A stretch of 60,456 nucleotides of DNA from Candidatus Thorarchaeota archaeon (GTDB lineage: Archaea; Asgardarchaeota; Thorarchaeia; Thorarchaeales; Thorarchaeaceae): the NCBI GenBank assembly GCA_021498125.1, contig JAIZWL010000003.1:1-60456 (forward strand), written 5' to 3'. Below the pieces are notes generated by a model. The model was given only the letters and a program-made list of their open reading frames with translations, did not search any database and was not told where the DNA came from. Positions 1 through 20,563 of this stretch are shown here, one piece after another. A program made the translations under genes and the position numbers. How positions within the stretch are numbered: position 1 is the first letter of the stretch; every line of letters begins with the position of its first letter.

Positions 1-1
1 A

Positions 2-646
2 TTTAACAAGTTATCTACAATAGACCTGAGACCCTTGGCCGCCTGTTCGCAGCTCACATATCTTCATCTGAACAGTAACCAGTTGCGCTCGATCGACCTG
101 AGTCCGCTGGCCGCCTGTTCGCAGCTTATGCAGCTTGCTCTGGGATTTAACAAGTTATCTACAATAGACCTGAGACCCTTGGCCGCCTGTTCGCAGCTCA
201 CATATCTTCATCTGAACAGTAACCAGTTGCGCTCGATCGACCTGAGTCCGCTGGCCGCCTGTTCGCAGCTTGCTAAACTTAATCTCGACGGGAATCATCT
301 GCGGGAACTTGATCTGACCCCTATAGGTCGCATCTGTTCGCAACAGTCCGACGCGCATGCTAAATGGCTCGCCATCGATATAAACAACAATCGATTACAC
401 GAGCTTGACCTGAGTCCCTTGGCGGGGTGTCCTCAACTCACTGGATTGTATCTTAAAGGTAATCCCTTGGAGCGTCTTGATCTGACTCCTCTTTTAACTT
501 GCAAAAAGCTATCACTCTTAGAGAGTGATATCGATATCTTTCTAGAGGCCGACAAGGGTGCAGATGTTCCACCCCCGCCACCTGACGATCTTCCCCAAGG
601 CGTGGCACGCTATTACGACTTCATACACTGGTATCGGTACATATAA
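2..646 (+). CDS. Leucine-rich-repeat protein, 3' part (cut by window edge)
   Basis: The reading frame is open to the left edge, so the start lies outside the window. It encodes 24-residue LRR units with the core LxxLxLxxNxLxxIDLxPLAxCSQ. About seven units are visible, followed by a C-terminal cap ending in YYDFIHWYRYI. The cap is the same as in the LRR proteins at 2779-4071 and 7028-8182, so this is a third member of that subfamily. Two repeat pairs are almost identical at the DNA level, which suggests recent repeat duplication. No signal peptide or membrane segment is seen in the visible part, so it is probably cytosolic. LRR solenoids usually bind proteins; the partner is unknown. Confidence 0.85.
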   Translation, partial: FNKLSTIDLRPLAACSQLTYLHLNSNQLRSIDLSPLAACSQLMQLALGFNKLSTIDLRPLAACSQLTYLHLNSNQLRSIDLSPLAACSQLAKLNLDGNHLRELDLTPIGRICSQQSDAHAKWLAIDINNNRLHELDLSPLAGCPQLTGLYLKGNPLERLDLTPLLTCKKLSLLESDIDIFLEADKGADVPPPPPDDLPQGVARYYDFIHWYRYI

Positions 647-880: not shown

Positions 881-1348
881 ATGTCAGAGAGTATGCTCTC
901 TCGCACACCCAAAGATCTCACGTTCTATTGTCATAGAGAGGAGGAGTGGCGATTGCGAATTGACTCGAAGCTCTTTGTTAGAATAGTGTTGTTAGTATTA
1001 GTCCTACTGACCAGTTCTGTAGTGACCACTGTTGTGGCGCGCAATACTGAAGAAGTATCACAACCTCTGCCCCTGTCGGAGTATGTGGCGACCTGCTATG
1101 ATCCGACCGGAACAGGGTTTGGTCCTCGACCTGGGGAATCATCGACGCTAGAGTCCACATTGGAGGCAGTCCGGCTGCTGGTGCATGATACGGATTCCAC
1201 CACGTGGACCGGAGAGTTGAGAGCCATGCTGGACCAGATCGTTGATGCTTATGTCTCGATGCAGGTTGCCGGCCGTGGTGGTTTTAGGGCAATGTGTGAG
1301 GGGTATGCTGGATGTGGTGCTGTTGCTAATATTGATGCGCTTGAGTAG
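881..1348 (+). CDS. Predicted single-pass membrane protein, unknown function
   Basis: This 155-residue protein has one hydrophobic segment at about residues 31-53 (rich in V, L and I). An N-terminal charged cytosolic part precedes it and a mostly polar exterior part follows. Two Cys pairs are possible in the exterior part (CYDPTGTG and CEGYAGCG). A TATA-like GAGTATAGAG lies about 25 bases before the ATG, so the transcript may be leaderless. The stop is 15 bases from the next gene, which also encodes a membrane-anchored exterior protein, so the two probably form an operon. I do not recognise the family. Confidence 0.6.
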   Translation: MSESMLSRTPKDLTFYCHREEEWRLRIDSKLFVRIVLLVLVLLTSSVVTTVVARNTEEVSQPLPLSEYVATCYDPTGTGFGPRPGESSTLESTLEAVRLLVHDTDSTTWTGELRAMLDQIVDAYVSMQVAGRGGFRAMCEGYAGCGAVANIDALE

Positions 1349-1363
1349 TGAGGTGGACGAGTA

Positions 1364-2137
1364 ATGATCGAGTTGACCCGAAGACGACTGTACGCGCTGG
1401 TGATCATTGCCGTAGTGGTGGGTGGGCTGTTCTATGTGTTCAATCCGTTCCGGACGCACCTCGTCTATGAGTCGCGTTTCTCTGACCCAAATGATAAGCT
1501 TCCAGTCTATGTTGATGTACTGCACTTTGTAGATGCGAACGTGACGGTACGGTTCGTCAACGAGCCGGGGTTGATGTGTCGCATGGAGGTGGAGTTGTAC
1601 GGGTGGCAGATGCAGTACACGAGTCCGGTCTGGCAGGTGTACCTGTACAAGGCGTCGCCTGACTGGTATCACGCTAAGCTAGAGATGCAGCGAGGGACTG
1701 CTGCGATGAGACGAGCCCGTGCCGTACACATCACCCTGGGCGTGAATCACAGTTATTCTCTTCTCTTAGACGGCGAAAACCTGAACGTGAGCATCGTGTA
1801 CGATCATGGTGCTCTGCTGGATGATAATGAGGTCGATCTCTCCTATACAGGGACTGTGGATTTTACGTTCACGGAGGATGTAGTCGTGCAGGGTGGTCTA
1901 ACGGTAGGCGCAGGGGGTCATTTGAAGACGACCCATGTTGATGTACTCCTCCCCGAGAATCTGGATGGCAGGGTTATGGTTGGGACTCATGATAATCTGT
2001 ATATATCTGGTCGCTGGGCGCTCAAGTCTGTTACTCCCTATGACACTACGTATGCCACACCAGATCGTAAAGACGCCCCCCTGTTTAATTTAGAACTTCC
2101 TGGAGGTGACTATGCCACTGGGTCGCTGCGAGGATGA
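1364..2137 (+). CDS. Membrane-anchored beta-rich exterior protein, paralogue of 10289-10828
   Basis: The 257-residue product has an N-terminal transmembrane anchor at about residues 9-28 and then a beta-rich exterior region with N-glycosylation sequons (NVT, NHS, NVS). From codon 108 onward it is closely similar to the gene at 10289-10828 in both protein and DNA. That similarity continues past the stop codon into a 23S rRNA-like fragment. The N-terminal 107 residues have no counterpart in the paralogue. A cell-surface role is likely, but no family is recognised. It probably shares a transcript with the preceding gene. Confidence 0.65.
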   Translation: MIELTRRRLYALVIIAVVVGGLFYVFNPFRTHLVYESRFSDPNDKLPVYVDVLHFVDANVTVRFVNEPGLMCRMEVELYGWQMQYTSPVWQVYLYKASPDWYHAKLEMQRGTAAMRRARAVHITLGVNHSYSLLLDGENLNVSIVYDHGALLDDNEVDLSYTGTVDFTFTEDVVVQGGLTVGAGGHLKTTHVDVLLPENLDGRVMVGTHDNLYISGRWALKSVTPYDTTYATPDRKDAPLFNLELPGGDYATGSLRG

Positions 2138-2557
2138 GGGCTGGCGGAGCCTCTGATCTACCACATCTGGTTGTGTTGTTAGACCTCAGCAAGTGAGATG
2201 AAGCCGGACCCAAAAATAGATACCCACTTTGCAGGCGCTCCCACCGAGGGACGATGGGGGTGGCGACGCCAACATTGAGTCTGCGAACGAGGGATCTGGT
2301 AGAAGACCAGGTAAATAGGGCAGGGGTGTAAGCACCAAGCTTCGGCGAGGTGTTCAGCTCACTGCTACTAATTCCCGAGGCGTGCAGGGCCAAAGTGTGG
2401 CTCGCGCAGTACCTAGAGTTGTGAAGGACTTTGGGTTGTTGAAGAGTTGTTGAAGAAGTAGAAGGGTTGTTGGATCTGGTGAATGTGCAATAATCTACCT
2501 ATTGCGAGATTACAGGTAGATCACGAAGGAAGAGTCTTCATCCTCTGCGGACCATCT
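1685..2557 (+). repeat. Segmental duplication, copy 1 (gene tail plus 23S fragment plus trailer)
   Basis: This segment matches 10358-11226 in the same orientation. It runs from codon 108 of the membrane-protein gene, through the 23S rRNA-like fragment, to a trailing stretch ending in GAGTCTTCATCCTCTGCGG. The match is strongest in the 23S part and interrupted in the trailer. The rest of the gap to 2778 is T-rich, with no gene seen. Confidence 0.8.
2200..2392 (+). pseudogene. 23S rRNA 3'-end fragment, copy 1
   Basis: The sequence follows the 3' end of archaeal 23S rRNA. GAAGCC..CCC..AGATACCC comes first, then GTAGAAGACCAGGTAAATAGG, then GGGGTGTAAGC, a short hairpin loop, a TCAGCTCACTG-type segment and CTACTAATTCCCGAGG. 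In E. coli 23S the same order ends ..GAAGACGACGTTGATAGG, GTGTGTAAGCGC.., GAGCTAACCGGTACTAAT. Nothing of the upstream 23S is present, so this is a fragment and not an rRNA gene. A hairpin with the arms GGCG-CTC-CCACC and GGTGG-CGA-CGCC is visible inside it. Confidence 0.8.
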
Positions 2558-2778: not shown

Positions 2779-4071
2779 TCAATCCCAGCGATACCAGTTT
2801 ATGAGATGGTAGTAGCGCGCTACACCGACTGGCAGAGGGGACAAGCGTTCCGAATCCATGTCCGCATCTAAAAAGATATCGTCATCAATGGACAGACGCG
2901 CCAATTTTTTGCAGGTCATGAGAGGCGTCAGGTCAAGCCTCTTTAGCGGATTACCTCTGAGATACAACGAAACAAGATAGGGGCACCCCGCCAGAGGACT
3001 TAGATCGATCGACCGCAGCCGATTGTCATTCACTGAGACTGAGAGATACATGGTGCGCTGGTCAGCCCGTTGCGAACATATCGTGTATAGAGGACTCAGA
3101 TCAAGTTCTCGCAAGAGATTCTCATCAAGATTAAGTGTAGCAACCTGCGAACAGGAGGCCAGGGGACTCAGGTCGATCGAGCGCAACTGGTTCCTGTACA
3201 GATAAAGCTTCGTGAGCTGCGAACAAGAGGCCAGGGGACTCAGGTCGATCGAGCGCAACTGATTCCTGCCCAGATAAAGAGTGGTAAGCTGCGAACAGGA
3301 GGCCAGGGGACTCAGGTCGATCGAGCGCAACTGGTTCCCGTACAGATAAAGCTCCGCAAGCTGCGAACAGGAGGCCAGGGGACTCAGGTCGATCGAGCGC
3401 AACTGGTTCTCGTTCAGATAAAGAGTGGTAAGCTGCGAACAGGAGGCCAGGGGACTCAGGTCGATCGAGCGCAATTGATTCCTGCCCAGATAAAGCTTCG
3501 TGAGCTGCGAACAGGAGGCCAGGGGACTCAGGTCGATCGAGCGCAACTGGTTCTCGTTCAAATAAAGTTCCGCAAGCTGCGAACAGGAGGCCAGGGGACT
3601 CAGGTCGATCGTTCCTAATTGGTTCCCCCTCAGATAAAGGGTGGTGAGCTGGGGACAAGAGACCAAGGGCCTCAGGTCAACCGCCTCCAACTGGTTATTG
3701 CTCAGTTCAAGCGTCTGTAAATGGGGACAGGAGGCTAGGGGACTCAGGTCGATCGAGCGCAACTGGTTACTGGCCAGATCAAGCGTCTGCAACTGGGGAC
3801 AGGCGGCCAAGGGACTCAGGTCAAGACCTTCTAGGTGACTGCAATATATATTCAGGCGGACAAGTTGCGAGCACGCCGAGAGTGGGGTGAGATCAATATC
3901 TACGATGTGCCTGTCAAAATATACGATCAGGACCTCACGTGCCGTCTTCTCAACCTCGATGTACCCATGCACCCGCTTATCCTTAACGGTCGCCTCGTAA
4001 GGCAGATGCACCTTGTCGTCACTCACGTCGTCTTCCGTCTGCCTCTTCTGCACATCTGCAAGATCATTCAT
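2779..4071 (-). CDS. Leucine-rich-repeat protein, subfamily A
   Basis: This 430-residue protein has no signal peptide. A charged N-terminal cap of about 60 residues (VQKRQTEDDVSDDKV, then a beta-hairpin region) leads into about eleven 24-residue LRR units with the consensus LxxLYLxxNQLRSIDLSPLASCSQ. A C-terminal cap ends in YYHLINWYRWD. The central units are nearly identical 72-bp DNA repeats, which points to expansion by slippage or gene conversion. GGAGGT lies about 10 bases before the chosen ATG. The nearest paralogue is 7028-8182; the caps match and the repeat number differs. It is probably a cytosolic protein-binding scaffold with an unknown ligand. Confidence 0.9.
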   Translation of the reverse strand: MNDLADVQKRQTEDDVSDDKVHLPYEATVKDKRVHGYIEVEKTAREVLIVYFDRHIVDIDLTPLSACSQLVRLNIYCSHLEGLDLSPLAACPQLQTLDLASNQLRSIDLSPLASCPHLQTLELSNNQLEAVDLRPLVSCPQLTTLYLRGNQLGTIDLSPLASCSQLAELYLNENQLRSIDLSPLASCSQLTKLYLGRNQLRSIDLSPLASCSQLTTLYLNENQLRSIDLSPLASCSQLAELYLYGNQLRSIDLSPLASCSQLTTLYLGRNQLRSIDLSPLASCSQLTKLYLYRNQLRSIDLSPLASCSQVATLNLDENLLRELDLSPLYTICSQRADQRTMYLSVSVNDNRLRSIDLSPLAGCPYLVSLYLRGNPLKRLDLTPLMTCKKLARLSIDDDIFLDADMDSERLSPLPVGVARYYHLINWYRWD

Positions 4072-4223
4072 CCATTGCCACCTCCATCACTCGGATTCAA
4101 CCAGTAAGGCCGTACGAGAAAGAGCGGCACGAACTACATACAATCAGCACGACAACGACATGCGTGGATGCATGCAACTCGGTGGGCCTCCGGTCTCATA
4201 CAGAATGTATATCCGAACCTCAC
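4072..4223 (-). promoter_or_regulatory. Conserved 5' leader of the subfamily A LRR gene
   Basis: The roughly 150 bases before the start at 4071 are also found upstream of the paralogue at 7028-8182. They share a block around GAGTTGCATGCAT and GGATAT, although the paralogue carries an extra segment of about 80 bases. The transcript would therefore have an unusually long leader for an archaeon. No known riboswitch fold is recognised. Confidence 0.45.
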
Positions 4224-4238
4224 CATTTAAGCTCATAC
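4224..4238 (-). promoter_or_regulatory. Shared LRR promoter element (GAGCTTAAATGG)
   Basis: On the minus strand this reads GAGCTTAAATGG, a TATA-like core. The same core with small changes occurs before the other three LRR genes of this cluster (5741-5755, 8426-8440, 8546-8563) and before the acetyltransferase at 14580. It would drive the LRR gene at 2779-4071 through the conserved leader. Confidence 0.5.
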
Positions 4239-4284
4239 ATCGATTGGACAGGGACTCTCTCCTATATGATGAGAGGATCACAAA

Positions 4285-5643
4285 TTATTCATTGGAGAAC
4301 GTGAGGCGCCCCCGTTCGTGCAACTGGCGAAGCGCATACGGCAGGCTCTCGGCGCTCATGGACGCCTCAAATCTCTCACGGGAGACATGGAGAACGACCG
4401 AGGGGTCGACTTTCAAGTACCACAAGGAGGGACAGGTGAGCAATGGGTCAAGGTCCAGCTCGCGCAGGGGGTTTGCGGTGAGTTCGATTGTTTCCAAACG
4501 GGGGAGTCCCGCGAGCGGTGAGAGATCAATCTGGGAAAATTGATTGTTTTGGAGATACAGACACTTTAGATACTGATGCTCAGAAAGAGGGGAGAGATCT
4601 ACGCGCGACAAGAGGTTACCGTCCATTGCCACATCAGTTAGATAGGGAAGGTCTGTAAGAGGTGTCAAGTCAAGTGAGGTCAGACGATTATTGTGTACAA
4701 ACAGAATCTGAAGGGATCGATGCGTTTTGAGCGCGGTCAGATCGATGTGGGTCAGGCCCTGGTCTGAGAGGCGTATGTCCCGTAGTTCCGTGAGACCCGC
4801 GAGCGGACTCAGATCGATGTGGGTCAGGCCCAGACCTGAGAGGCGTAGTTCCCATAGTTCCGCGAGGCCCCCGAGGGGCGTCAGGTCCACTTCCTTCAGG
4901 GTATTACCGGTCAGACTTAACCGCCTGAGATGCGGGATGGTACGCAGAGGCTCCAAATCTACCATGCTCAACCGATTCCGACCGATGTACAGGACCTCGA
5001 GCGTGGGATGGCCCTGCAGCGGTCGCAGGTCAACGGCCTCCAGCCGATTGGACGAGAGAGCCATCTCTTTTAGAGCAGAGGCCTCGCGCAGTGGCGTGAG
5101 GTCGATCGTCACCAGTCGGTTTTGTGTCAAATCCAACTTTTGGAGCGAGGGGTGTCCACGCAGCGGCTCAAGGTCGATGTAGTCAAGTTGGTTTTGCCAG
5201 AGGACCAGTTCTTGGAGAGCTGGCACCTCACGCAGCGGACGCAGGTCGACCGTCACCAGTCGGTTTTGTGTAAAATCCAACGTTTGGAGCGAGGGATGCC
5301 CGCGCAGCGGCTCAAGGTCGATGCGTTCGAGATGGTTACGCATGAGGACCAGTTCTTGTAGAACAGGCACCTCACGCAGCGGCGTGAGGTCGATCTCCTT
5401 TAGCCAATTGTATGTCAGATTGATGCGGCGGAGCGTGGGATGGCCCTGCAGCGGTCGCAGGTCGATGTGGTCAAGATAATTACTGCTCAGATCGAGCGCT
5501 TCCAGTCGTGGCAGGTGCTGTACACCCGTCAGGTCGACCTCCGTCAGTTCATAGCCGGACATGAAGAGCTCGGTACAGTTAGAGGGGTACTCCTCCTCGA
5601 AGGAGAACTCGTCCCGGTGATACTTGATAATAATGTACTTCAT
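4285..5643 (-). CDS. Leucine-rich-repeat protein, subfamily B
   Basis: The 452-residue product starts with a short beta-rich cap (about residues 1-35). About sixteen LRR units of roughly 24 residues follow, with the consensus LxxLxLxxNxLxxIDLxPLRxxPx, and then a helical C-terminal cap ending in LRQLHERGRLTFSNE. There is no signal peptide or membrane span. It is very similar along its whole length to 8660-10018, which lies on the opposite strand, so the pair arose by inverted duplication. The DNA match extends into the upstream leader and promoter. The function is not known beyond likely protein binding. Confidence 0.9.
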   Translation of the reverse strand: MKYIIIKYHRDEFSFEEEYPSNCTELFMSGYELTEVDLTGVQHLPRLEALDLSSNYLDHIDLRPLQGHPTLRRINLTYNWLKEIDLTPLREVPVLQELVLMRNHLERIDLEPLRGHPSLQTLDFTQNRLVTVDLRPLREVPALQELVLWQNQLDYIDLEPLRGHPSLQKLDLTQNRLVTIDLTPLREASALKEMALSSNRLEAVDLRPLQGHPTLEVLYIGRNRLSMVDLEPLRTIPHLRRLSLTGNTLKEVDLTPLGGLAELWELRLSGLGLTHIDLSPLAGLTELRDIRLSDQGLTHIDLTALKTHRSLQILFVHNNRLTSLDLTPLTDLPYLTDVAMDGNLLSRVDLSPLSEHQYLKCLYLQNNQFSQIDLSPLAGLPRLETIELTANPLRELDLDPLLTCPSLWYLKVDPSVVLHVSRERFEASMSAESLPYALRQLHERGRLTFSNE

Positions 5644-5740
5644 CGCTCAGTGGCCCCCAAGACATCGGTCCTTTATGCTTTGAGGAAGTCTGTACAAACG
5701 GAGACATATACAGCCCTCTACTCTCTAGAGGAGATACTAT

Positions 5741-5755
5741 CATTTAAGCTCATGC
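5741..5755 (-). promoter_or_regulatory. Shared LRR promoter element
   Basis: On the minus strand this reads CATGAGCTTAAATG, about 100 bases before the LRR start at 5643. The stretch between (with CTCTAGAGAGTAGAG) is conserved before the inverted paralogue at 8660. The remaining bases to 5980 are A/T-rich and would hold the promoter of the truncated methyltransferase gene. No gene is seen there. Confidence 0.5.
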
Positions 5756-5980
5756 ACGGATGAGGCTCTGTGAAAAGTCAGTAACATAGAGGTTATGAAA
5801 AAAGGGTCCTATTTTGTGTCCGAATCCAAGACTCTTCAGGACTCGTTTTATATTGTTTGATGTCATTTTGCACAACTTTTTGTCACTCACCATAAGAATG
5901 CACAATACAATGAAGTTCTTAGATAAAACCCCATAACCTTTTAGAGTGTGAACTGATTAGAAAAGTGTACTAACAAACAT

Positions 5981-7120
5981 TTGAGGGATCGTATTTTGGG
6001 CAAGAAAAAGAGCAGGCGAAATGGAACAGATGATTCCTCCGCATTCAATTATGGAACAACCAACTTCAGTGAGAAAGTTTCATTTATCTGGAACATCGCT
6101 GATTTGCTACGCGGTACGTATAAGAGATCAGATTACGGTAAGATAATACTGCCATTCACGGTCCTTCGAAGACTTGATCAAGTTCTTGAAGATAGTAGAA
6201 CAAAAGTTCAGGACGCATACAAGAAATACAAGAGCCGACTGAAGAGCGTAGCATTGGACATGAAACTGCAGAAGGTCGCAGGACATTCATTTTACAATAC
6301 AAGTTACTTCAATTTTGAGAAGCTACTAGGAGATCCGGATAATCTTGCGGCTAACTTACTCAATTACGTTGACGGGTTCTCTCCGAATGCAAGGGATATC
6401 ATGTATAAATTCGATATCAAGACACATATCACTAAGTTAGCAGAGAAGGATTTGCTCTATGTGGTTTTCAAAGAATTCTGCAATCCAGAGAAGATTGACC
6501 TTCATCCAGATCGAGTGTCAAATATCGAGATGGGATATATCTTTGAAGAATTAATCCGCAGATTCTCAGAGCAATCAAATGAAACTGCTGGGGAGCATTT
6601 TACTCCAAGAGAAGTCATCAAACTCATGGTCAATCTCTTATTTATTGAAGACAAAGATGTGTTGCAAAAAGAAGGATTGGTTCGTACTCTTTATGATCCA
6701 GCTTGTGGGACAGGAGGGATGCTATCTGTGGCAGAAGAATACCTACAGAGGTTACATCCCACTGTGCAATTAGTACTATATGGCCAAGAACTTAATGATG
6801 AGGCATTCGCAATATGCAAATCCGACATGCTAATCAAAGGACATAATCCTGAAAACATTGCTCGTCAAAATACTTTTACGCACGACCTTTTTCCGGATAA
6901 AACTTTTGACTACATGTTGTGTAATCCCCCATTTGGAGTGGATTGGCGGGCTGTTGAAAAAGAAGTGAAAAAGGAGCATGATGATAAGAATATAGGAATT
7001 GAACGAGAGTGGGAAGAGGGAAGTGGATTAGTCCCGGCGATACCAGTTTATGAGATAGCTGTAGGTCTCCACGCCTTCTGGCAGAGGGGACAAGCGCTCC
7101 GAATCTATGTCGGCATCTAA
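5981..7120 (+). pseudogene. hsdM: Truncated type I restriction methyltransferase (HsdM)
   Basis: Residues 15 to about 340 read as the N6-adenine methyltransferase subunit of a type I system. The helical N-terminal domain has FIWNIADLLRGTYK and ILPFTVLRRLD. It is followed by the SAM-binding motif DPACGTGGML and the catalytic motif NPPFGVDW. At about 7000-7025 the homology stops. The frame then runs antisense through the 3' end of the LRR gene at 7028, adding about 30 unrelated residues. The family is normally about 500 residues, so the target-recognition-proximal C-terminus is lost. No hsdS or hsdR is present in the window. The first possible start is TTG at 5981. The gene is probably inactive. 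Confidence 0.85.
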
Positions 7121-8182
7121 AAAGATATCGTCATCAATGGTTAGACGCACGAATTCCTTACAGGTCATGAGAGGCGTCAGGTCAAGCCTCTTTAGAGGAT
7201 TACCTGTGAGATACAACGCAATAAGATAAGGACACCCAGCCAGAGGACTTAGATCTATCGCCCGCAGCCGATTGTTGTTCACCGCGACCGAGAGATACTT
7301 GTATTTGATGCGCTGGTCGGTTCGTTGCGAACATATCGTATGGAGAGGGGTCAGATCGAGCTCCCGTAAGTGATTCCCACCAAGATTAAGTTTAGCAAAC
7401 TGGGGGCAGGATGCCAAGGGACTCAGGTCTATTGATCGCAATCGGTTACTGCTCAGATAAAGATGTGTGAGTTGTGTACAGGTGGCCAGGGGATTTAGGT
7501 CTATTGTCGATAACTTGTTAAAGCTTAGAATAAGCTGCATAAGCTGCGAACAGGTGGCCAAGGGACTCAGATCTATTGTCGATAACTTGTTAGATCCTAA
7601 ATTAATCTCCATGAGCTGTGTACAGGAGGCCAGGGGACTCAGGTCTATCGATCGCAACTGGTTCTCATTCAGATGAAGAGTGGTGAGCTGTGTACAGGAG
7701 GCCAGGGGACTCAGGTCTATCACCTCTAGCTGGTTCCTGCTTAGATAGAGAGCTGTGAGCTGTGTACAGGAGGCCAGGGGACTCAGGTCTATTGAGCGCA
7801 ATCGGTTACTGCTCAGGTCGAGCGTCTGTAACTGCGAACAGGCGGCCAAAGGACTCAGGTCTATCGCCTCCAACCAGTTCCCGCTCAGGTTGAGCGTCTG
7901 TAACTGTGGACAGGAGGTCAGCGGACTCAGGTCAAGACCTTCTAGGGCTCTGCAATATAGTTTCAGACTGACTAGTTGTGTGCATGCCGAGAGAGGCGCG
8001 AGATCAATATCTACGATGTCCCCGTTAAAATATACAACCCGGACCTCACGCGCCGTCCTCTCAACCTCGATGTACCCATGCACCCGTTCATACCCATTGG
8101 TCGCCTCGTAAGGCAGACGTACCTTGTCGTCACTCACGCCGTCTTCCGTCCGCCTCTTCTGCACATCTGCGGGAACATTCAT
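7028..8182 (-). CDS. Leucine-rich-repeat protein, subfamily A
   Basis: This 384-residue paralogue of 2779-4071 has the same N-terminal cap (VQKRRTEDGVSDDKV) and C-terminal cap (INWYRRD) but fewer LRR units, about nine. It includes FNKLSTIDL-type units that it shares with the partial gene at the left window edge. The stop codon lies within a few bases of the breakpoint that truncates the hsdM-like gene. GGAGGT precedes the ATG. It is probably cytosolic and protein-binding; the ligand is unknown. Confidence 0.9.
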   Translation of the reverse strand: MNVPADVQKRRTEDGVSDDKVRLPYEATNGYERVHGYIEVERTAREVRVVYFNGDIVDIDLAPLSACTQLVSLKLYCRALEGLDLSPLTSCPQLQTLNLSGNWLEAIDLSPLAACSQLQTLDLSSNRLRSIDLSPLASCTQLTALYLSRNQLEVIDLSPLASCTQLTTLHLNENQLRSIDLSPLASCTQLMEINLGSNKLSTIDLSPLATCSQLMQLILSFNKLSTIDLNPLATCTQLTHLYLSSNRLRSIDLSPLASCPQFAKLNLGGNHLRELDLTPLHTICSQRTDQRIKYKYLSVAVNNNRLRAIDLSPLAGCPYLIALYLTGNPLKRLDLTPLMTCKEFVRLTIDDDIFLDADIDSERLSPLPEGVETYSYLINWYRRD

Positions 8183-8425
8183 TCATTGCTACCTCCATCA
8201 CTCGGTACCAATCAGTGGGATTGCACGAAGAAGAGAGACACGAGCCACATACATCCGTACGACAACGACTGCACCACCACCACCACTACTACAACAACTA
8301 CAATCTTGCAATACCTGCAAGGGCCGTTTCCAGCCAAGCGGGACTCTACGCAGACGCCATCATGCATGTATGCATGCAACTCGGTGGGTCTCCAGTCTCA
8401 TACGGAATGGATATCCGAGCCTCAC
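8183..8425 (-). promoter_or_regulatory. Conserved leader of the LRR gene, with an inserted simple repeat
   Basis: This leader aligns with 4072-4223. It also carries an extra segment at about 8265-8345 with a run of CAC, CTA and CAA triplets, which is absent from the other copy. The palindromic ATGCATACATGCAT is at about 8361-8377. No gene is seen here. Confidence 0.4.
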
Positions 8426-8440
8426 TATTTAAGCTAATAC
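8426..8440 (-). promoter_or_regulatory. Shared LRR promoter element
   Basis: On the minus strand this reads GTATTAGCTTAAATA, the TATA-like core also seen at 4224 and 5741. It lies about 245 bases before the LRR start at 8182. Confidence 0.45.
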
Positions 8441-8545
8441 ATCAATTGCCCCACCTCCGAGAGTCGAGAACAGGCTGCGATTTGATGACTGGCATTGAGG
8501 GGGAACACCCTAGAATGGATGACAAGTCATCTTTGTAATTCATCC

Positions 8546-8563
8546 GTGCATGAGCTTAAATGA
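8546..8563 (+). promoter_or_regulatory. Shared LRR promoter element
   Basis: The sequence GTGCATGAGCTTAAATGA is the mirror copy of the element at 5741-5755. It lies about 100 bases before the ATG at 8660. The intervening leader, with CTCTAGAGAGTAGAG, is conserved between the inverted paralogues. Confidence 0.5.
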
Positions 8564-8659
8564 TAGTATCTCCTCTAGAGAGTAGAGGGCTGTACATGAC
8601 TTCGTCTGTATTATCTTTTTCAAGGCCTGAAAGACTGGTATTGTGGGAGTCACTGAGAG

Positions 8660-10018
8660 ATGAAGTACATTATTATTGAGTATCGCCGGGACGAGTTCTC
8701 CTTCGAGGAGGAGTACCCCTCTAACTGTACGCAGTTTATCATGGAGGATTTTGATATGACGGAGGTCGACCTGTCGGGAGTGCAGCATATGCCACGAGTG
8801 GAGCTCCTTGATCTGAGCTATAACCACCTCAGACATATCGACCTGAGTCCCCTGCGCGGTCACCCCACGCTCCGCTGCATCGATCTGAAGTCCAATTGGC
8901 TAAAGGAGATCGACCTTGAGCCGCTACGTGAGGTACCTGCTCTCCAAGAAGTGGTCCTCAGGCGTAACAAACTTGACCACATTGACCTTGAGCCGCTGCG
9001 CGGGCATCCCACGCTCCAGACGTTGGATTTGACACAAAACCGACTGGTGACGATCGACCTTGAGCCGCTGCGTGAGGTGCCCGCTCTCCAAAAATTGGTT
9101 CTTCGGTATAACCAACTTGACCACATCGACCTTGAGCCACTGCGTGGGCACCCCTCGCTTCAGATGCTAGATCTTATGCATAATCGTCTGTCAACGATCG
9201 ACCTGAGTCCGCTGCGCGAGGCCTCTGCTCTGAAATTTCTGGTTCTCTCTTTCAATCAGCTGGAGGCCGTTGACCTGCGGCAGCTACAGGGTCATCCCAC
9301 GCTCGAGGTCCTGTTCATTGGTCAAAATCGGTTGAGCACGGTTGATTTGGAGCCTCTGCGTACCATCCCGCATCTCCGGCGGTTAAGTCTGTCCGGTAAT
9401 ACCCTGAAGGAGGTGGACCTGACGCCCCTCGGGGGCCTCGCGGAACTACGGGACTTGTACCTCTCAGGTCTGGCCCTGACCCACATCGACCTGAGGCCGC
9501 TTGCGGGCCTCACGGAACTACGGGAACTATGCCTCTCGGACCAGGGTCTGACCCACATCGACCTGACCGCGCTCAAAACGCATCGATCCCTTCAGTTCCT
9601 GTTTGTACACAATAATCGTCTGGCCTCACTTGACTTGACTCCTCTTACAGACCTTCCCTATCTAACTGATGTGGCAATTGACAGTAACCTCTTATCGCGC
9701 GTAGACCTCTCCCCTCTTTCTGAGCATCAGTATCTAAAGCGGTTGCATCTCGAAAACAATCAATTTTCCCAGATTGATCTCTCGCCGCTCGCGGGACTCC
9801 CCCGTCTGGAAGATATCGAACTCACCGCAAACCCCCTGCGCGAGCTGGACCTTGATCCATTGCTCACCTGTCCCTCCTTGTGGTACTTGAAAGTCGACCC
9901 CTCGGTCGTTCTCCATGTTTCCCGTGGCCGCTTCGAGGAGGCCAAGAACTCCGAAAGCCTGCCGTACGCGCTTCGCCAGTTGCACGAGCGGGGGCGCCTC
10001 ACGTTCTCCGATGCTTGA
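8660..10018 (+). CDS. Leucine-rich-repeat protein, subfamily B
   Basis: This 452-residue protein is the same length as 4285-5643 and aligns with it from end to end. It has an N-terminal beta cap, about sixteen 24-residue LRR units (LREVPALQxLVLxxNxLDHIDLEPLRGHPS and variants), and a C-terminal cap ending in LRQLHERGRLTFSDA. Most differences lie in the first half, on the exposed positions of the LRR strands. That pattern could reflect changed ligand choice. No export signal is visible. Confidence 0.9.
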   Translation: MKYIIIEYRRDEFSFEEEYPSNCTQFIMEDFDMTEVDLSGVQHMPRVELLDLSYNHLRHIDLSPLRGHPTLRCIDLKSNWLKEIDLEPLREVPALQEVVLRRNKLDHIDLEPLRGHPTLQTLDLTQNRLVTIDLEPLREVPALQKLVLRYNQLDHIDLEPLRGHPSLQMLDLMHNRLSTIDLSPLREASALKFLVLSFNQLEAVDLRQLQGHPTLEVLFIGQNRLSTVDLEPLRTIPHLRRLSLSGNTLKEVDLTPLGGLAELRDLYLSGLALTHIDLRPLAGLTELRELCLSDQGLTHIDLTALKTHRSLQFLFVHNNRLASLDLTPLTDLPYLTDVAIDSNLLSRVDLSPLSEHQYLKRLHLENNQFSQIDLSPLAGLPRLEDIELTANPLRELDLDPLLTCPSLWYLKVDPSVVLHVSRGRFEEAKNSESLPYALRQLHERGRLTFSDA

Positions 10019-10288: not shown

Positions 10289-10828
10289 ATGAGAGAGAGG
10301 GGCAGATTAGTACGGGTCTTTTGTGCAGTGTTTATCATCATCAGTGTGCTGAGCATGATGCAGCGTGGGACTGCTGCAATGAGGCGAGCCCGATCTGTTC
10401 ATATCACCCTTGGCGTGAACCACAGTTATTCTCTCATGTTAGATGGTGAAAACCTGAACGTGAGCATCGTGTACGATCACGGTGCCCTGATCAATGATAA
10501 TGAGGTCACGCTGGATTACTATGAGGGTCATGTGTACTTCACATTCACAAAAAATGTTACAGTCCAAGGTGGGCTTCGCGTGCACACGCCGACATACCTC
10601 ATGCGAGACAGCACCTGTTTTGTCGATGTGGATCTCCCCGATGCTCTAGATGGGCAGCTGACCCTTACTAACCCTCATGATATAACGATTGCGGGACGGT
10701 GGCGTCTTAAGAGCGTACCTCCCTATTCGATAGGGACTGTCTATGCAACGCCTGACCGGTCAGACTATCCCCTGCTCGATATACTCTTGAACGGTGGAGG
10801 TTATGTGACCGGTTCCCTTCGTAGTTGA
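10289..10828 (+). CDS. Membrane-anchored beta-rich exterior protein, shortened paralogue
   Basis: The 179-residue product has an N-terminal hydrophobic anchor (VFCAVFIIISVLS) joined directly to the sequence that begins at residue 108 of the 1364-2137 product (MQRGTAAMRRAR). The following beta-rich domain with NHS, NVS and NVT sequons is the same in both, up to the shared C-terminus (GGxYxTGSLR). The intervening region of the longer paralogue is missing, so one copy has been rearranged. The function is unknown; it is predicted to sit on the cell exterior. Confidence 0.6.
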   Translation: MRERGRLVRVFCAVFIIISVLSMMQRGTAAMRRARSVHITLGVNHSYSLMLDGENLNVSIVYDHGALINDNEVTLDYYEGHVYFTFTKNVTVQGGLRVHTPTYLMRDSTCFVDVDLPDALDGQLTLTNPHDITIAGRWRLKSVPPYSIGTVYATPDRSDYPLLDILLNGGGYVTGSLRS

Positions 10829-11226
10829 CATATGTTTCATATCGGGGCATCTAAGCGTCAATGAAGCCAGACCCAAAAATAGATACCCACTTTGCAGGTG
10901 CTCCCACCGAAGAGCGGCGGGGGTGGCGACGTCAACGCTGAGTCTGCGAACGAGGGATCTGGTAGAAGACCAGGTAAATAGGGCAGGGGTGTAAGCACCA
11001 AGCTTCGGTGAGGCGAGGTGTTCAGCTCACTGCTACTAATTCCCGAGGCGTGCAGGGCCAAAGTGTGGCTTGCGCAGTACCTACCTAGAGTTGTGAAGGA
11101 CTTTGGGTTGTTATACAATTTGTAGACGAGTTGTTGGTTCTGGTGAATGTGCAAAGCCGTAGTAGACCGATCGAGCAAACGCTATATCTATTGAGTAAAA
11201 GAGTCTTCATCCTCTGCGGGCCATCT
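10358..11226 (+). repeat. Segmental duplication, copy 2
   Basis: This copy matches 1685-2557 in the same orientation: the gene tail, the 23S rRNA-like fragment, and a trailer ending in GAGTCTTCATCCTCTGCGG. It continues until just before the gene at 11269-11748. Confidence 0.8.
10845..11060 (+). pseudogene. 23S rRNA 3'-end fragment, copy 2 (longest)
   Basis: This copy starts further upstream than copy 1, at GGGGCATCTAAGCG, matching the universal 23S GCATCTAAG segment. It then continues GAAGCC, ATAGATACCC, GTAGAAGACCAGG, GTAAATAGGG, GGGTGTAAGC and CTACTAATTCCCGAGG. It covers roughly the last 215 bases of 23S rRNA. Compared with copy 1, the hairpin arms change from GGCG/CGCC to GGTG/CGTC, so pairing is kept through G-U pairs. 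The rest of 23S is absent. Confidence 0.82.
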
Positions 11227-13914: not shown

Positions 13915-14223
13915 TCAGTGTCCTGCAACATACTGGACCTCCGCCATTTCGAGGACTTCCTGTCTAAAGTACTTGCTAAGATCCGCGGGCGTTCTCAGAT
14001 CGACCTTCCGTCGGAACAGATGTGAGAGTTCCTCCTCCATTCTGATGAACGCGAAGAATCCCGGAGCGTGGCCCTCTTCGAACTCGACAAGAACATCCAC
14101 ATCACTATCCGGACCAAAATCCTCTCTGAGGGCCGAGCCAAAGATGGATAGTCTGCGAATATGATGGCGCCTGCAGAAGTCCGAGATCTTTTCCTTTGAT
14201 GGCGGTCGAATTCGAAGTGTCAT
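13915..14223 (-). CDS. MNT-type minimal nucleotidyltransferase, orphan
   Basis: The 102-residue protein carries the nucleotidyltransferase signature GSALREDFGPDSDVDVLVEF. The GS, DVDV and later VDL acidic positions are intact, so it could be active. MNT proteins usually pair with a HEPN ribonuclease and modify it as an antitoxin. No HEPN gene is adjacent. It is followed 86 bases later by the orphan HicB-like gene on the same strand. Confidence 0.8.
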   Translation of the reverse strand: MTLRIRPPSKEKISDFCRRHHIRRLSIFGSALREDFGPDSDVDVLVEFEEGHAPGFFAFIRMEEELSHLFRRKVDLRTPADLSKYFRQEVLEMAEVQYVAGH

Positions 14224-14311
14224 TGTGTTTTCCCGCTGTCTTTAATGAACTAATCCTCTTCAATCTTATGAATGTGTGATGGCAACACTGATTTGTGTTA
14301 TGATTTATTCG

Positions 14312-14354
14312 CTACTACTAATTCCCGAGGCGTGCAGGGCCAAAGCGTGGCTCA
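14312..14354 (+). pseudogene. 23S rRNA 3'-end fragment, copy 3 (terminal part only)
   Basis: CTACTAATTCCCGAGGCGTG and the following bases to GTGGCTC match copy 1 at 38 of 39 positions. Only the last stretch of 23S plus the start of the trailer is kept. The surrounding 14224-14579 stretch holds no gene; the reading frames there are not protein-like. Confidence 0.75.
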
Positions 14355-14559: not shown

Positions 14560-14570
14560 TATTTAAGCTC
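14560..14570 (+). promoter_or_regulatory. TATA box for the acetyltransferase at 14580
   Basis: TATTTAAGCTC resembles the shared LRR promoter core. It lies 10-20 bases before the two candidate ATG codons, so the message is probably leaderless. Confidence 0.5.
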
Positions 14571-15213: not shown

Positions 15214-15290
15214 GAGGTAAATAGGGCTGGGGTGTAGGCACCAATCTTCGATTAGATGTTCTACTCACTGCTACTAATTTCCGAAGAGTG
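15214..15290 (+). pseudogene. 23S rRNA 3'-end fragment, copy 4 (diverged)
   Basis: GAGGTAAATAGGGCTGGGGT, TAGGCACC, then CTACTCACTGCTACTAATTT follow the same order as copies 1 and 2, with more substitutions. The rest of 15149-15592 holds no gene; it contains a C-run and A/T-rich DNA before the restriction-modification operon. Confidence 0.75.
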
Positions 15291-15592: not shown

Positions 15593-17200
15593 TTGGACTC
15601 CATAAACGGGATACTTGAGGGTCAAGGACTGGTGCAGTCCATTCCCGCCCCCAATTATGAAGAGAGTCCGGTAGCGTATGCGTATCGTCTTGCACTATGG
15701 TACTCTTCGAGAGCCACTAATGCGGATGGGCAGATCTTCACTCCGCCCTCAATTGCCAAGTTCATGGCTCAACATATTCCTATGAGCGCCAAATCCTCCT
15801 TATCCGTTCTGGATCCCGGAATAGGTACTGGTATCCTCTCCTGTGCAACTGTTGAGCAATTCGTTCAGCAGCAGCAACAGCAGGATGGTGGCAACATCAG
15901 CCTAGATGGGTTCGACATTGACCCTCACGTTCTCGAAGTGGCCGCGGCTTCACTTACTTATGCAAAGAAATGGGCTGAGCGTAGCAATGTCCGTGTCACC
16001 TTTACGTTTCACAATGAGGACTTTGTATTTGCAGGGCTTGGAAAAATCGCAGGAAGTCTTGCTGTTCAGGCCTCGTCCTCCAGTATTTACGATGCAGTCA
16101 TTATGAATCCTCCTTACTTCAAAGTGAGCGCTTCCGATCCTCGGGTCAAGGCCGTGGCCAAGTTTGCTGGCAAACAGACCAATATCTACACACTCTTTCT
16201 CTCTGTGGCCTCGCAGCTCCTGTCTTCAGACGGGATCCTCGTGTCCATAACACCGCGTAGTTTTGCTTCGGGTATGTACTTTCAGGCCTTTCGCAGGAGC
16301 TTTTTACAAGATATGCGTCCTATTGCCCTTCATCTATTTGATTCCAGAAAGGATGTCTTTCCCCATATGGATGTTCTTCAAGAGGCCATTATTATGGTGG
16401 CCCGTCCTCGTCTCTGTGCGGATGATTCCCAAGTGATTATCACGACGAGCAACGGTTCAGAGGACATAGATCGTCCAAGGAGAATCACTGTTCGGCTATC
16501 GCAGATTCTTCTGTCAGGTTCAAAGTTTCGACTGGCGATTCCGACGACTGAGGCTGAAAGCCAGTTGCTTGAGTCTGTGCACGCATGGCCTAACACTCTC
16601 TCGGACCTTGGTCTTGAGGTCTCCACAGGCCCAGTAGTTCCTTTTAGAGCCACTGAGTTCTTAGTACACGATCCCTCCTCCGAAAAGGGGCGGGTGGTCC
16701 CCCTGCTCTGGATGAACAATATCACCGGAATGTCTGTGAGATGGCCCTTGAGAAATCATAAACCAGAGTATATTCTCGATGCGCCCGCAAATCAATATAT
16801 GCTCGTACCGAATGAACGCTACGTTCTCATCAGACGATTCAGCACAAAAGAAGAACAGCGTCGCCTAGTTGCTGCTGTAGTGCCGGAGTCACTCATGAAC
16901 ACAGACCATCTCGGGCTCGAGAACCATCTCAATTTTATTCATTGCAATATGAGGGGACTTGAGCGCAATGTTGCATATGGGCTTGCAGTGCTGCTCAATT
17001 CCTCCTTAATGGACCGATACTTTCGTATCCTAAATGGAAACACACAGGTCAATGCATACGATCTCCGGCAGATGCCACTTCCCCCACTTGAAAAAATAGA
17101 ACTGCTTGGTGAGCATTACCTCGGACACGCAGTTGACCTGAAGTCATCTCAAGACTTAATTGATGGTCTCGTTGAGCAAGTGTTGTCTGATGCTTTGTAG
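15593..17200 (+). CDS. Type II N6-adenine DNA methyltransferase (PstI/BsuBI class)
   Basis: The 535-residue protein has the SAM-binding motif LDPGIGTGILS, an acidic FDIDPHVLEVAAASL motif and the catalytic NPPYFKV. A large C-terminal target-recognition region follows. The next gene, 25 bases away, is a BsuBI/PstI-family endonuclease. This enzyme is therefore predicted to methylate adenine in the same site, CTGCAG in characterised members, and to protect the genome. The first codon after an in-frame stop is TTG at 15593; no strong ribosome-binding site is seen. A GTG thirteen codons later is another possible start. Confidence 0.85.
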   Translation: MDSINGILEGQGLVQSIPAPNYEESPVAYAYRLALWYSSRATNADGQIFTPPSIAKFMAQHIPMSAKSSLSVLDPGIGTGILSCATVEQFVQQQQQQDGGNISLDGFDIDPHVLEVAAASLTYAKKWAERSNVRVTFTFHNEDFVFAGLGKIAGSLAVQASSSSIYDAVIMNPPYFKVSASDPRVKAVAKFAGKQTNIYTLFLSVASQLLSSDGILVSITPRSFASGMYFQAFRRSFLQDMRPIALHLFDSRKDVFPHMDVLQEAIIMVARPRLCADDSQVIITTSNGSEDIDRPRRITVRLSQILLSGSKFRLAIPTTEAESQLLESVHAWPNTLSDLGLEVSTGPVVPFRATEFLVHDPSSEKGRVVPLLWMNNITGMSVRWPLRNHKPEYILDAPANQYMLVPNERYVLIRRFSTKEEQRRLVAAVVPESLMNTDHLGLENHLNFIHCNMRGLERNVAYGLAVLLNSSLMDRYFRILNGNTQVNAYDLRQMPLPPLEKIELLGEHYLGHAVDLKSSQDLIDGLVEQVLSDAL

Positions 17201-17225
17201 TTGTCTGAGAGAGGGATTCTGAAGA

Positions 17226-18161
17226 ATGGCAGATATTAAAGAAGCAGAACGTATTCTCAGAGATATCGGGTTGCCTGAAGCACAACAACGTGATATTGCC
17301 TGTTTGACGTTATTGGCATTGGCCCATCTTAGACTCAGTGACACATGGAATAAGACAGACCCACAGCCAATCAGAATTCATGATATGATTGAATTCATCG
17401 GCAAAGAATATGGACGTAAATACGCAGAGAATAGCCGTGAAACGTTCAGAAGACAGGTGTTGCATCAGTTTATTCAAGGCGGCCTCGTTATTATGAATCC
17501 TGACGATCCCACTCGCCCAACAAATTCGCCCAACACATGCTACCAATTGACACCTGAAGCAGTAGCGGTCCTCAAGGCATTCATGACAAAAAATTACACC
17601 CAGCGGTGTGCCGAGTTCAAAAAACGTAGAGGCAGTCTTGTTGAGAGATACAGTGAGGCCAGAGCAAGCCATCGCGTTCCAGTGAGGCTTCCGAATGGGA
17701 CCGAATTCACTTTTAGTCCTGGAAAACATAACAGGCTCCAAGCTGTTGTGATTACGGACTTTGCGGCTCGTTTTGTCCCCGGTGCAGATGTCCTGTATGC
17801 GGGGGACACAGAAAATAAGATGCTTCATGTTGCAACCGATGTTCTCGATGAACTAGGTATCCCTGTGGCCAAACATAACAAGTTACCGGACATCTTATTT
17901 TTTGCAAGATCAAAGAATCTTTTGGTGCTTGTCGAAGTTGTCACAAGCCACGGGCCTGTTACACCCAAACGGCAAATGGAACTTGAGGATGTCCTTAGGA
18001 ATTGTGAGCTCCAACGAATCTATGTAACTGCATTTCCAGACTTTAAGGAGTTCAAAAAGCATCTCTCTGATATTGCATGGGGGACCGAGGTCTGGATTCA
18101 TGAGACCCCCGATCACATAATTCATTTCAATGGCCCCACACTTTTCAGAGAACTTGGTTGA
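17226..18161 (+). CDS. BsuBI/PstI-family type II restriction endonuclease
   Basis: The 311-residue protein begins with a winged-helix-like N-terminal domain (about residues 1-150). A C-terminal nuclease domain contains PDILFF, then VEVVTSHGPVTPKRQMELEDVL. The latter is the conserved core of the BsuBI/PstI endonucleases, with the PD...ExV catalytic residues present. Members cut CTGCAG. It probably shares a transcript with the methyltransferase. Both genes appear full length, so the system may be active. CTGCAG sites do occur in this window (for example near 5011 and 14170), so protection by methylation would be needed. Confidence 0.87.
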   Translation: MADIKEAERILRDIGLPEAQQRDIACLTLLALAHLRLSDTWNKTDPQPIRIHDMIEFIGKEYGRKYAENSRETFRRQVLHQFIQGGLVIMNPDDPTRPTNSPNTCYQLTPEAVAVLKAFMTKNYTQRCAEFKKRRGSLVERYSEARASHRVPVRLPNGTEFTFSPGKHNRLQAVVITDFAARFVPGADVLYAGDTENKMLHVATDVLDELGIPVAKHNKLPDILFFARSKNLLVLVEVVTSHGPVTPKRQMELEDVLRNCELQRIYVTAFPDFKEFKKHLSDIAWGTEVWIHETPDHIIHFNGPTLFRELG

Positions 18162-18841: not shown

Positions 18842-19010
18842 ATCTCCAAAAAGTTGGATATTTCAATTATCAGTCTGTTTGTCGGAGCTGCAACACACAT
18901 ATTGAAAGCAAAATTCGGTGTAATAATGAAAAATCGATTTTTGGGGCGAAAAAAGTGAGTGGACCACCGGAGAGATTACTCCGTGGTCACCTTTATTATT
19001 ATTTTATTAC

Positions 19011-19166
19011 CATGGGGTGTCAGGCTCGGGTCTACCAGGCATGAACTGCCATGGGGTGTCAGGCTCGGGTCTACCAGGCATGAACTGCCATGGGGTGTCA
19101 GGCTCGGGTCTACCAGGCATGAACTGCCATGGGGTGTCAGGCTCGGGTCTACCAGGCATGAACTGC
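19011..19166. repeat. Four perfect 39-bp tandem repeats
   Basis: The unit starts at CATGGGGTGTCAGGCTCGGG and is repeated exactly four times without spacers. Because 39 is a multiple of 3, reading frames stay open on both strands across the array; these are artefacts. The flanks are A/T-rich (TTATTATT on the left, GTTGTTGTTG on the right). No gene is seen in 18842-19489 and no function is known. Confidence 0.9.
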
Positions 19167-19489
19167 CGCGAAATGTTGTTGTTGCTGTGCATTTTAATTC
19201 ACGAATATTTATGCATCATATTGCGTCATTCCTCCCCCTCCGATTCTTTGAGCAATGAGTCCAATCAGATTTGTAATAATAGTCAATATTTGCAGACTTG
19301 TGATGGCGATTAGTCTTGGGCTTTATTAAGGTCGAGTTATGACTAGATATGGCCTGAATCTGTTGTATACATTCTACAGGCGTGTCTTACCGATGTAACA
19401 ATGGTCACTATCAGTTTCAGACGATAATGGTCTCTACAGATCGTTGCGAAAGAGATGCATTCCGATTTGGCTTGACGCGGTTATTGTGA

Positions 19490-20563
19490 TCAGGTCTTTT
19501 CTATATCATGTAAATTGAGGTGGCCATTACGTAGCATTCGACGGAGTGCCCATGGAAAATGGTCGGCCATCTTTTTAGAGCAATAGGCTACTACTTCGGT
19601 ATCTCTATCAGTTCTTAGAATATCTAGGTGGTTGCAAGTGGCGAGTGGCGTCACATTCAGTGTGTCGATCTTATTCTGGGCGACATTTAGTACTGATAGG
19701 TCTCTACAAGTAGCAAGTGGGCTCAAGTCTAGGCTCTGTAGTTGGTCATTAAACAGGTGTAGAGTCTCAAGTTTGGGCATGTTCGTAAGCGGTGAGAGAT
19801 CGATTGTTTCTAATTGGTTTCCGGAAAGACTCAATTCCCGCAGGCTCGTGAGCGATCTCAATGGTGCGAGATCTATTTCTGTGAGTCTATTTCCTGACAA
19901 ATCTAAGATCTCAAGTTTGTGCAGATTACTTATGGGCGTGAGGTCGATATCCGCAAGTTGATTGTCGGCAATGCTCAGTTCTCTTAGTTCTGTGCATGTT
20001 TCGAGTGGCGAGAGATCTATGGTTGTGATACTATTCTCTGCAATTCCAAAGAATTGAAGGTGTGGGAATGAAGAGAGTATGGAGAGATCAATGGTCCGTA
20101 GCTTGTTCTGTGTGAGATTGAGCGATTCAAGCTCGGTACACTCTGTCAGAGGTGATAGATCAATGGTCTTGATCAGATTTCGGGCGAGCGAGACCCCACG
20201 GAGCAGGTGACAGTGTGCCAGTGGTACGAGGTCGATCTCCACTATCCGGTTCTCTGAGAGGTCAATTGTTTGCAGGTACGGGCAAGACCTCAGAGGTGCG
20301 AGATCGATAGATTGAAGGTAATTATTGGAGAGCGATATCTTCTGTAGGTCGGAGCAGGCGTGAAGAGCATCGAGATCAATTCTTCTTAGTCTGTTTCGAT
20401 AGATGATGAGTTCATGCAGGCTGGTGCAGCTGTTGAGTGGTGAGAGGTCGATTCTCTCAATCTGGCGTCGTTGGACATGAAAGAGCTTTGCATCTAATGG
20501 CACTTTCCATACAATTCTATCTCCAGTGGCTGTAACGGACTCTATCTCAACAGATTGGATTAT
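19490..20563 (-). CDS. Leucine-rich-repeat protein with unusual start
   Basis: About twelve LRR units (LxxLxLxxNxLxxIDLxPLxxCxx) are followed by a C-terminal cap (HFPWALRRMLRNGHLNL). The first ordinary start is GTG at 20503. However, the frame stays open upstream and encodes a beta-hairpin cap (VEIESVTATGDRIVWKV) like that of the LRR protein at 30870-31529. A GGAGG sits 5 bases before an in-frame ATA at 20563, with a TATA-like CTTAAAAATG further upstream. I therefore extend the gene to the ATA, an unusual start codon. The protein is cytosolic and the ligand is unknown. Confidence 0.7.
   Translation of the reverse strand: MIQSVEIESVTATGDRIVWKVPLDAKLFHVQRRQIERIDLSPLNSCTSLHELIIYRNRLRRIDLDALHACSDLQKISLSNNYLQSIDLAPLRSCPYLQTIDLSENRIVEIDLVPLAHCHLLRGVSLARNLIKTIDLSPLTECTELESLNLTQNKLRTIDLSILSSFPHLQFFGIAENSITTIDLSPLETCTELRELSIADNQLADIDLTPISNLHKLEILDLSGNRLTEIDLAPLRSLTSLRELSLSGNQLETIDLSPLTNMPKLETLHLFNDQLQSLDLSPLATCRDLSVLNVAQNKIDTLNVTPLATCNHLDILRTDRDTEVVAYCSKKMADHFPWALRRMLRNGHLNLHDIEKT

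Follow-up and report, generated by a model that had tools for sequence, protein, structure and literature searches.

Introduction

The closest described counterparts of the genes analyzed here fall into receptors with a variable LRR surface and elements that carry LRR genes. Lamprey VLRs combine fixed caps with a variable concave face and a variable number of units, and are assembled somatically from an incomplete gene and flanking donor LRR cassettes; their ends are formed by cysteine-capped LRRNT/LRRCT, they are exported or GPI-anchored, and the product is displayed or secreted. Internalins are exported, surface-anchored proteins built of 22-residue units. Among eukaryotic receptors for immunity and recognition, diversification of the concave face between LRR paralogues is a hallmark, and the Asgard archaea are the closest prokaryotic relatives of eukaryotes. 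In brown algae, the 72-bp units of ROCO LRR genes are shuffled and their concave sites are positively selected (PMC11378527). Within the Asgard archaea, the Heimdallarchaeum element HeimM2, located between the 16S and tRNA-Arg genes, encodes both an LRR protein and a homing endonuclease; the site is also occupied by HeimV2, which is akin to the giant-gene aloposons (PMC8813620). No description of concave-face diversification of LRR paralogues in Asgard archaea was found in the open-access library of papers searched.

The window, by which we mean the whole stretch of DNA under analysis, comprises 60,456 nt (contig C3:1-60456) of a genome of Candidatus Thorarchaeota (3.1 Mb, 14 contigs, 98% complete), and was studied in detail up to about 32 kb. 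The source genome is probably metagenome-derived, as are its named relatives, and the comparisons used one genome per species. Loci of relatives were found with an alignment of a conserved LRR orthologue, B2 alone as query having matched nothing.

Results and Discussion

LRR genes of the window and their described counterparts

The LRR genes considered in the window are the following.

1..646, plus strand: A3, third A-type LRR gene, N-terminus missing at the contig edge (self-BLAST)
2779..4071, minus strand: A1, LRR gene, 430 aa, probably a cytosolic solenoid of 24-residue LRRs (ORF list, Pfam, AlphaFold pLDDT 87.8)
3145..3576, minus strand: six homogenised 72-bp units of A1 (residues 166-309)
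4285..5643, minus strand: B1, LRR gene, 452 aa (ORF list, self-BLAST, Pfam)
7028..8182, minus strand: A2, LRR gene, 384 aa, two units fewer than A1 (ORF list, self-BLAST)
8660..10018, plus strand: B2, LRR gene, 452 aa, inverted with respect to B1 (ORF list, self-BLAST)
19490..20503, minus strand: LRR gene C, kept in the congener G003, used as orthologue control

A1, B1, A2 and B2 are LRR paralogues, all matching the Pfam families LRR_8/LRR_4 above the curated cut-off (E-values of 1e-31 to 1e-56). A sequence-only reading of this DNA had described them as two subfamily pairs, the B copies inverted and the A copies direct, and self-BLAST agrees on both counts: B1 (4247-5763) aligns in inverted orientation with B2 (10054-8540) at 86% DNA identity over 1517 bp, and A1 and A2 are about 77% identical in direct orientation. 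The B proteins have the same length and the same number of units and align without gaps. The difference in length between A1 and A2 equals two 24-aa units less a 2-aa insert, so that unit number does vary within subfamily A, as had been claimed. The 72-bp tandem array of A1 amounts to 9.4 copies, and as its longest exact internal repeat (60 bp) is shorter than the 77-bp overlap with the end of contig C2, the order of its units is resolved if the assembly used k=77. In A3, where an exact repeat of 127 bp falls at the contig end, the repeat region is not resolved in the assembly.

With VLRs these genes have in common fixed caps, a variable concave face and, between A1 and A2, a variable number of units; unlike VLR genes they are complete, with no apparent signal peptide and no donors found. 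No LRRNT/LRRCT cap family appears among the Pfam matches of the window LRR proteins, and the hydrophobic N-terminus expected for export or GPI anchoring is absent by 19-residue hydropathy. Listeria internalin A is similar in its LRR solenoid with a concave ligand face and is among the best PDB fold matches, whereas the units of the window proteins comprise 24 residues and an export signal is not apparent. The brown-algal ROCO genes resemble A1 in the way its units evolve, and a Chlorobium Roco LRR is the top PDB match; on the other hand, the algal genes carry their units as exons attached to a Roc-COR GTPase, whereas the archaeal gene is one uninterrupted ORF in which no domain other than LRR was found. 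The closest precedent is HeimM2, likewise from an Asgard archaeon, in which an LRR gene belongs to an island next to an rRNA gene, and the likeness extends to HeimV2 and the aloposons, in that genes for giant proteins integrate at the same kind of place. Unlike HeimM2, the locus analyzed here most likely lies at the 23S 3' end rather than at the 16S/tRNA-Arg site, no homing endonuclease was found in the island ORFs scanned, and the LRR genes are multiplied. An LRR gene next to an rRNA gene is present in G002, a congener, and is likely in the window genome, whose locus is a candidate for the HeimM2 type. Finally, a Thorarchaeota-wide LRR family (the orthologues of C, Q and M) has the same 24-residue IDLxPLxxC unit and similar caps, but, unlike A and B, keeps its concave residues relatively conserved and its units are not homogenised.

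Duplication of promoter+gene modules

The sequence-only reading also placed one TATA-like core in front of all four genes.

4225..4234, minus strand: TATA-like core GAGCTTAAAT of A1
5742..5751, minus strand: TATA-like core GAGCTTAAAT of B1
8427..8435, minus strand: TATA-like core AGCTTAAAT of A2, one mismatch to the 10-mer
8552..8561, plus strand: TATA-like core GAGCTTAAAT of B2

The core is exact 5' of A1, B1 and B2, but in A2 it takes the form TAGCTTAAAT, with one mismatch, and a fourth exact copy at 14570 (minus strand) has no LRR gene downstream. The leaders are indeed long, with core-to-ATG distances of about 98 nt in B1 and B2, 153 nt in A1 and 244 nt in A2. According to self-BLAST, homology between copies spans the promoter region and stops within about 10-40 bp of the stop codons, which identifies the duplicated piece as a promoter+gene module; the LRR genes have a common core partly because whole modules were duplicated. 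A small inverted repeat found at the 3' boundaries of the A modules (2766-2785, GGGATCAATCCC, at A1, and 7015-7030) may be a terminator or a recombination end.

An island probably downstream of the 23S rRNA gene

The surroundings of the LRR genes contain copies of the 23S rRNA 3' end, parts of restriction-modification systems and genes for secreted proteins.

881..1348, plus strand: LPEY..CYD-type gene, truncated; in relatives a secreted homologue comes after LRR genes (58% over 119 aa to that of G002)
1364..2137, plus strand: membrane-anchored or secreted protein, C-terminal part common with 10289-10828 (65% over 155 aa)
2199..2440, plus strand: duplicated 23S rRNA 3' end and trailer, sharing its first 77 nt, without mismatch, with the C2 contig end
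5981..7030, plus strand: 5' part of hsdM (type I methyltransferase), cut at the A2 module boundary (about 7019)
10289..10828, plus strand: short secreted relative of 1364-2137, downstream of B2
10847..11112, plus strand: second duplicated 23S 3' end and trailer (Rfam LSU_rRNA_archaea, 10950-11044)
14309..14353, plus strand: short 23S 3'-end remnant
15215..15290, plus strand: short 23S 3'-end remnant
15593..18161, plus strand: methyltransferase and BsuBI/PstI restriction endonuclease pair, same island

A full, single 23S gene is located at the C2 contig end; this contig breaks off after the first 77 nt of the 23S-end repeat, which are 100% identical to the C3 copy, the pattern expected of an assembly break at a repeat. 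Synteny and this 77-bp overlap indicate that the first position of contig C3 most likely lies downstream of the single 23S gene. In G002 an LRR gene lies about 0.8 kb beyond the 23S gene, with A1 as its best match in the window genome (53%), and the secreted LPEY..CYD gene comes next. The G003 contig starts within 23S, after which come the GNAT, LRR-C and reductase genes that the window has at 14-22 kb, and G001 has another 15-kb set between 23S and the reductase, including AbiE-like, PIN and Nmad3 genes. Judged by this gene order, the interval after 23S appears to be a variable hot spot. An LRR gene after 23S as a family-wide rule was rejected, since other genera have no LRR-rich gene directly after 23S, in a check where several contigs end soon after that gene.

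The scattered direct copies of the 23S 3' end may represent a novel type of scar left by integration or duplication. One precise att core at the end of 23S was discarded because the starts of the two long copies fall at different positions of 23S, and no report of 23S attachment sites in archaea was found in the open-access library of papers searched. Integrases, transposases and homing endonucleases were absent from the island ORFs scanned, a set that covers part of the short ORFs and the island sequence from C3:1 onward. A viral origin of the LRR genes was rejected, as none of their relatives was found among viral contigs, and so was their identity as known anti-phage defence proteins, A1 and B2 matching none of the PADLOC defence families. 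A nucleotidyltransferase of the island (13915-14223) matches the PADLOC candidate defence model PDC-S09. Between the BsuBI-type system and LRR gene C, at 19010-19167, there is a perfect 39-bp tandem repeat of 4.1 copies.

Amino acid change concentrates on the concave face

The sequence-only reading had suggested a test for excess amino acid change at the exposed positions of the repeats, and the comparison of B1 with B2, taking unit positions 2, 3, 5, 7 and 8 as concave, shows such an excess. Differing codons make up 40% of concave, 9% of back, 5% of core and 22% of cap positions (Fisher tests; concave vs back, p-value 2e-6; concave vs caps, p-value 0.01). The concave dN/dS is 0.7-0.9, which is below 1, so relaxed constraint may account for it, and the bias alone does not prove positive selection. 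Within the six homogenised units of A1, every amino acid difference sits at concave codons 2, 3, 7 and 8, with a concave pN of 0.363, a pS of 0.168 and a pN of 0 elsewhere, counts that are small (14 variable nucleotide columns); in 2000 random draws of five codon columns, the concave pN value was never reached. In the AlphaFold model of A1, a confident LRR solenoid, strands occupy unit positions 3-5 and the variable codons map on and beside these inner strands.

The orthologue controls C, Q and M, compared between species of the genus, showed the reverse of B1/B2, with ratios of concave to back change of 0.22-0.90. The window genome contains a second pair of paralogues:

L016:5255-6895 and 7844-9403, contig C1: D1/D2, adjacent LRR paralogue pair with concave-biased divergence

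The D1/D2 ratio is 2.7, in the same sense as B1/B2. As the orthologues show the reverse, the concave bias belongs to the duplicated LRR genes here and not to LRRs generally.

The units of A1 are also mosaics. Its six homogenised units combine left alleles AE, TK or TT with right alleles NE, GR, YG or YR in six different combinations, which indicates exchange within units. The near-identity of 72-bp units that had been attributed to subfamily A as a whole applies to this block of A1, but not to A2, where, as in B, units are much more diverged.

We give an even chance to the reading that A1, A2, A3, B1 and B2 encode a diversified set of intracellular LRR proteins, acting in recognition or as adaptors, within a mobile-looking, conflict-prone, defence-like island. 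The LRR genes multiplied by duplication of promoter+gene modules; unequal crossing-over and gene conversion of the ordinary kind would copy and exchange units within a gene; and substitutions that change the concave face, which presumably binds the ligand, would be kept, with framework, caps and promoter held constant. The likely outcome would be several receptors of one build with different partners. In this reading the proteins would be cytosolic, their ligands would be proteins, and the driver would be selection in conflicts with mobile elements or viruses. Were selection behind the bias, the locus would serve as a testable case, in archaea, of recognition proteins that evolve through the shuffling of units.

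The main rival on cause is neutral drift of redundant copies, a birth-and-death process in a decaying island in which an unconstrained concave face drifts, folding preserves the core and conversion homogenises the units. The near-neutral dN/dS of the B concave face is what it predicts, and broken genes are plentiful nearby (the hsdM remnant, the 881-1348 remnant and the 23S fragments). Drift does not predict, on the other hand, that the exposed back-face positions of B should be conserved (0.09), and in A1 the concave pN is 2.2 times the pS while amino acids elsewhere do not change; moreover, the complete LRR ORFs are all intact and their promoters are retained. We hold drift to be somewhat unlikely.

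LRR genes beside genes for secreted LPEY proteins

In the window, A3 is followed by the truncated LPEY..CYD homologue, the same order of an LRR gene and an LPEY..CYD gene as in G002, and such pairs occur in several genera:

L148:3969-6920: LRR gene and LPEY..CYD gene
L154:3262-5365: LRR gene and LPEY..CYD gene
L077:6907-9531: LRR gene and LPEY..CYD gene

An LRR gene lies within about 400 bp at 6 of the 11 LPEY loci; since the association was counted after being noticed, and on non-independent loci, it is only a lead. Some of the LPEY-type ORFs are giant, with an N-terminus weakly like a prenyltransferase alpha-alpha toroid: beside LRR genes, the secreted-protein frame in G003 (contig C81; L155:1028 onward and L156) runs on for 10,134 codons until the contig ends, and that in G020 (contig C28; L152/L157) for at least 8,358 codons.

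The LRR genes might accordingly be read as cargo, or the working part, of one 23S-targeting mobile element that also encodes the secreted LPEY or giant protein, comparable to HeimM2 and the aloposons. Besides the count of neighbors, the 23S-LRR-LPEY order in G002, the 23S 3'-end copies that bound modules in the window and the HeimM2 precedent (PMC8813620) speak for such an element; the absence of any integrase, transposase or homing endonuclease from those island ORFs that were scanned, the different starting points of the 23S copies, unlike one att core, and the lack of relatives in viral contigs speak against it. We regard it as rather unlikely, and it is compatible with the favored reading of diversified recognition proteins. 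A link of 23S rRNA, LRR gene and very large secreted protein, echoing HeimM2 and the aloposons, would suggest a wider class of Asgard mobile elements. Quite speculative is the fuller proposal of a type of 23S-linked mobile element in Thorarchaeota with a cargo LRR receptor whose binding face is varied through the shuffling of units and which is accompanied by a secreted protein of giant size; this would be an archaeal counterpart of the eukaryotic LRR immune receptors.

Fold and localization

The best PDB fold matches of A1 are the Chlorobium Roco LRR, internalin A and SHOC2, and no signal peptide or membrane segment is apparent in the LRR proteins (maximum 19-residue hydropathy of about 1). 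Both results would suit signaling adaptors whose partners do not change, for example small GTPases or phosphatases, in the manner of SHOC2 or Roco, that subfunctionalised after duplication with no arms race. Nevertheless, LRR folds match one another whatever their function, and both the location in a variable island and the reshuffling of units would be unusual for housekeeping adaptors. This explanation seems to us unlikely.

Origin of the units

The sequence-only reading had compared the locus to a system for varying a recognition surface, as in variable LRR receptors; the likeness stands as far as the concave face varies and caps and promoter are fixed, but no dedicated machinery was found, neither reverse transcriptase nor donors, and the B units are equal in number. 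A diversity-generating retroelement was rejected on a search for RVT_1 (PF00078) that gave no match in the 98%-complete genome. All LRR matches of the genome fall in long ORFs, except for the edge-cut A3, so that no donor cassettes were found, and the unit substitutions of A1 are shared blocks, not adenine-targeted. A programmed system like those of lamprey VLRs or diversity-generating retroelements, rewriting unit number and concave codons within a cell lineage, is therefore very improbable on all these grounds, including the constant unit number of B, even though fixed caps and promoter, modular 72-bp units and an allele combination that differs in all six A1 units would fit it. Ordinary duplication, unequal crossing-over and conversion are enough to explain the units.

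Near-identical units are also found outside A1. Among 76 distinct LRR ORFs with five or more units, taken from the loci of the source genome and its relatives, five contain a pair of units with framework identity of at least 0.9, namely A1, A3, the gene just after 23S in G002, one ORF of G003 at a contig edge and one of G010.
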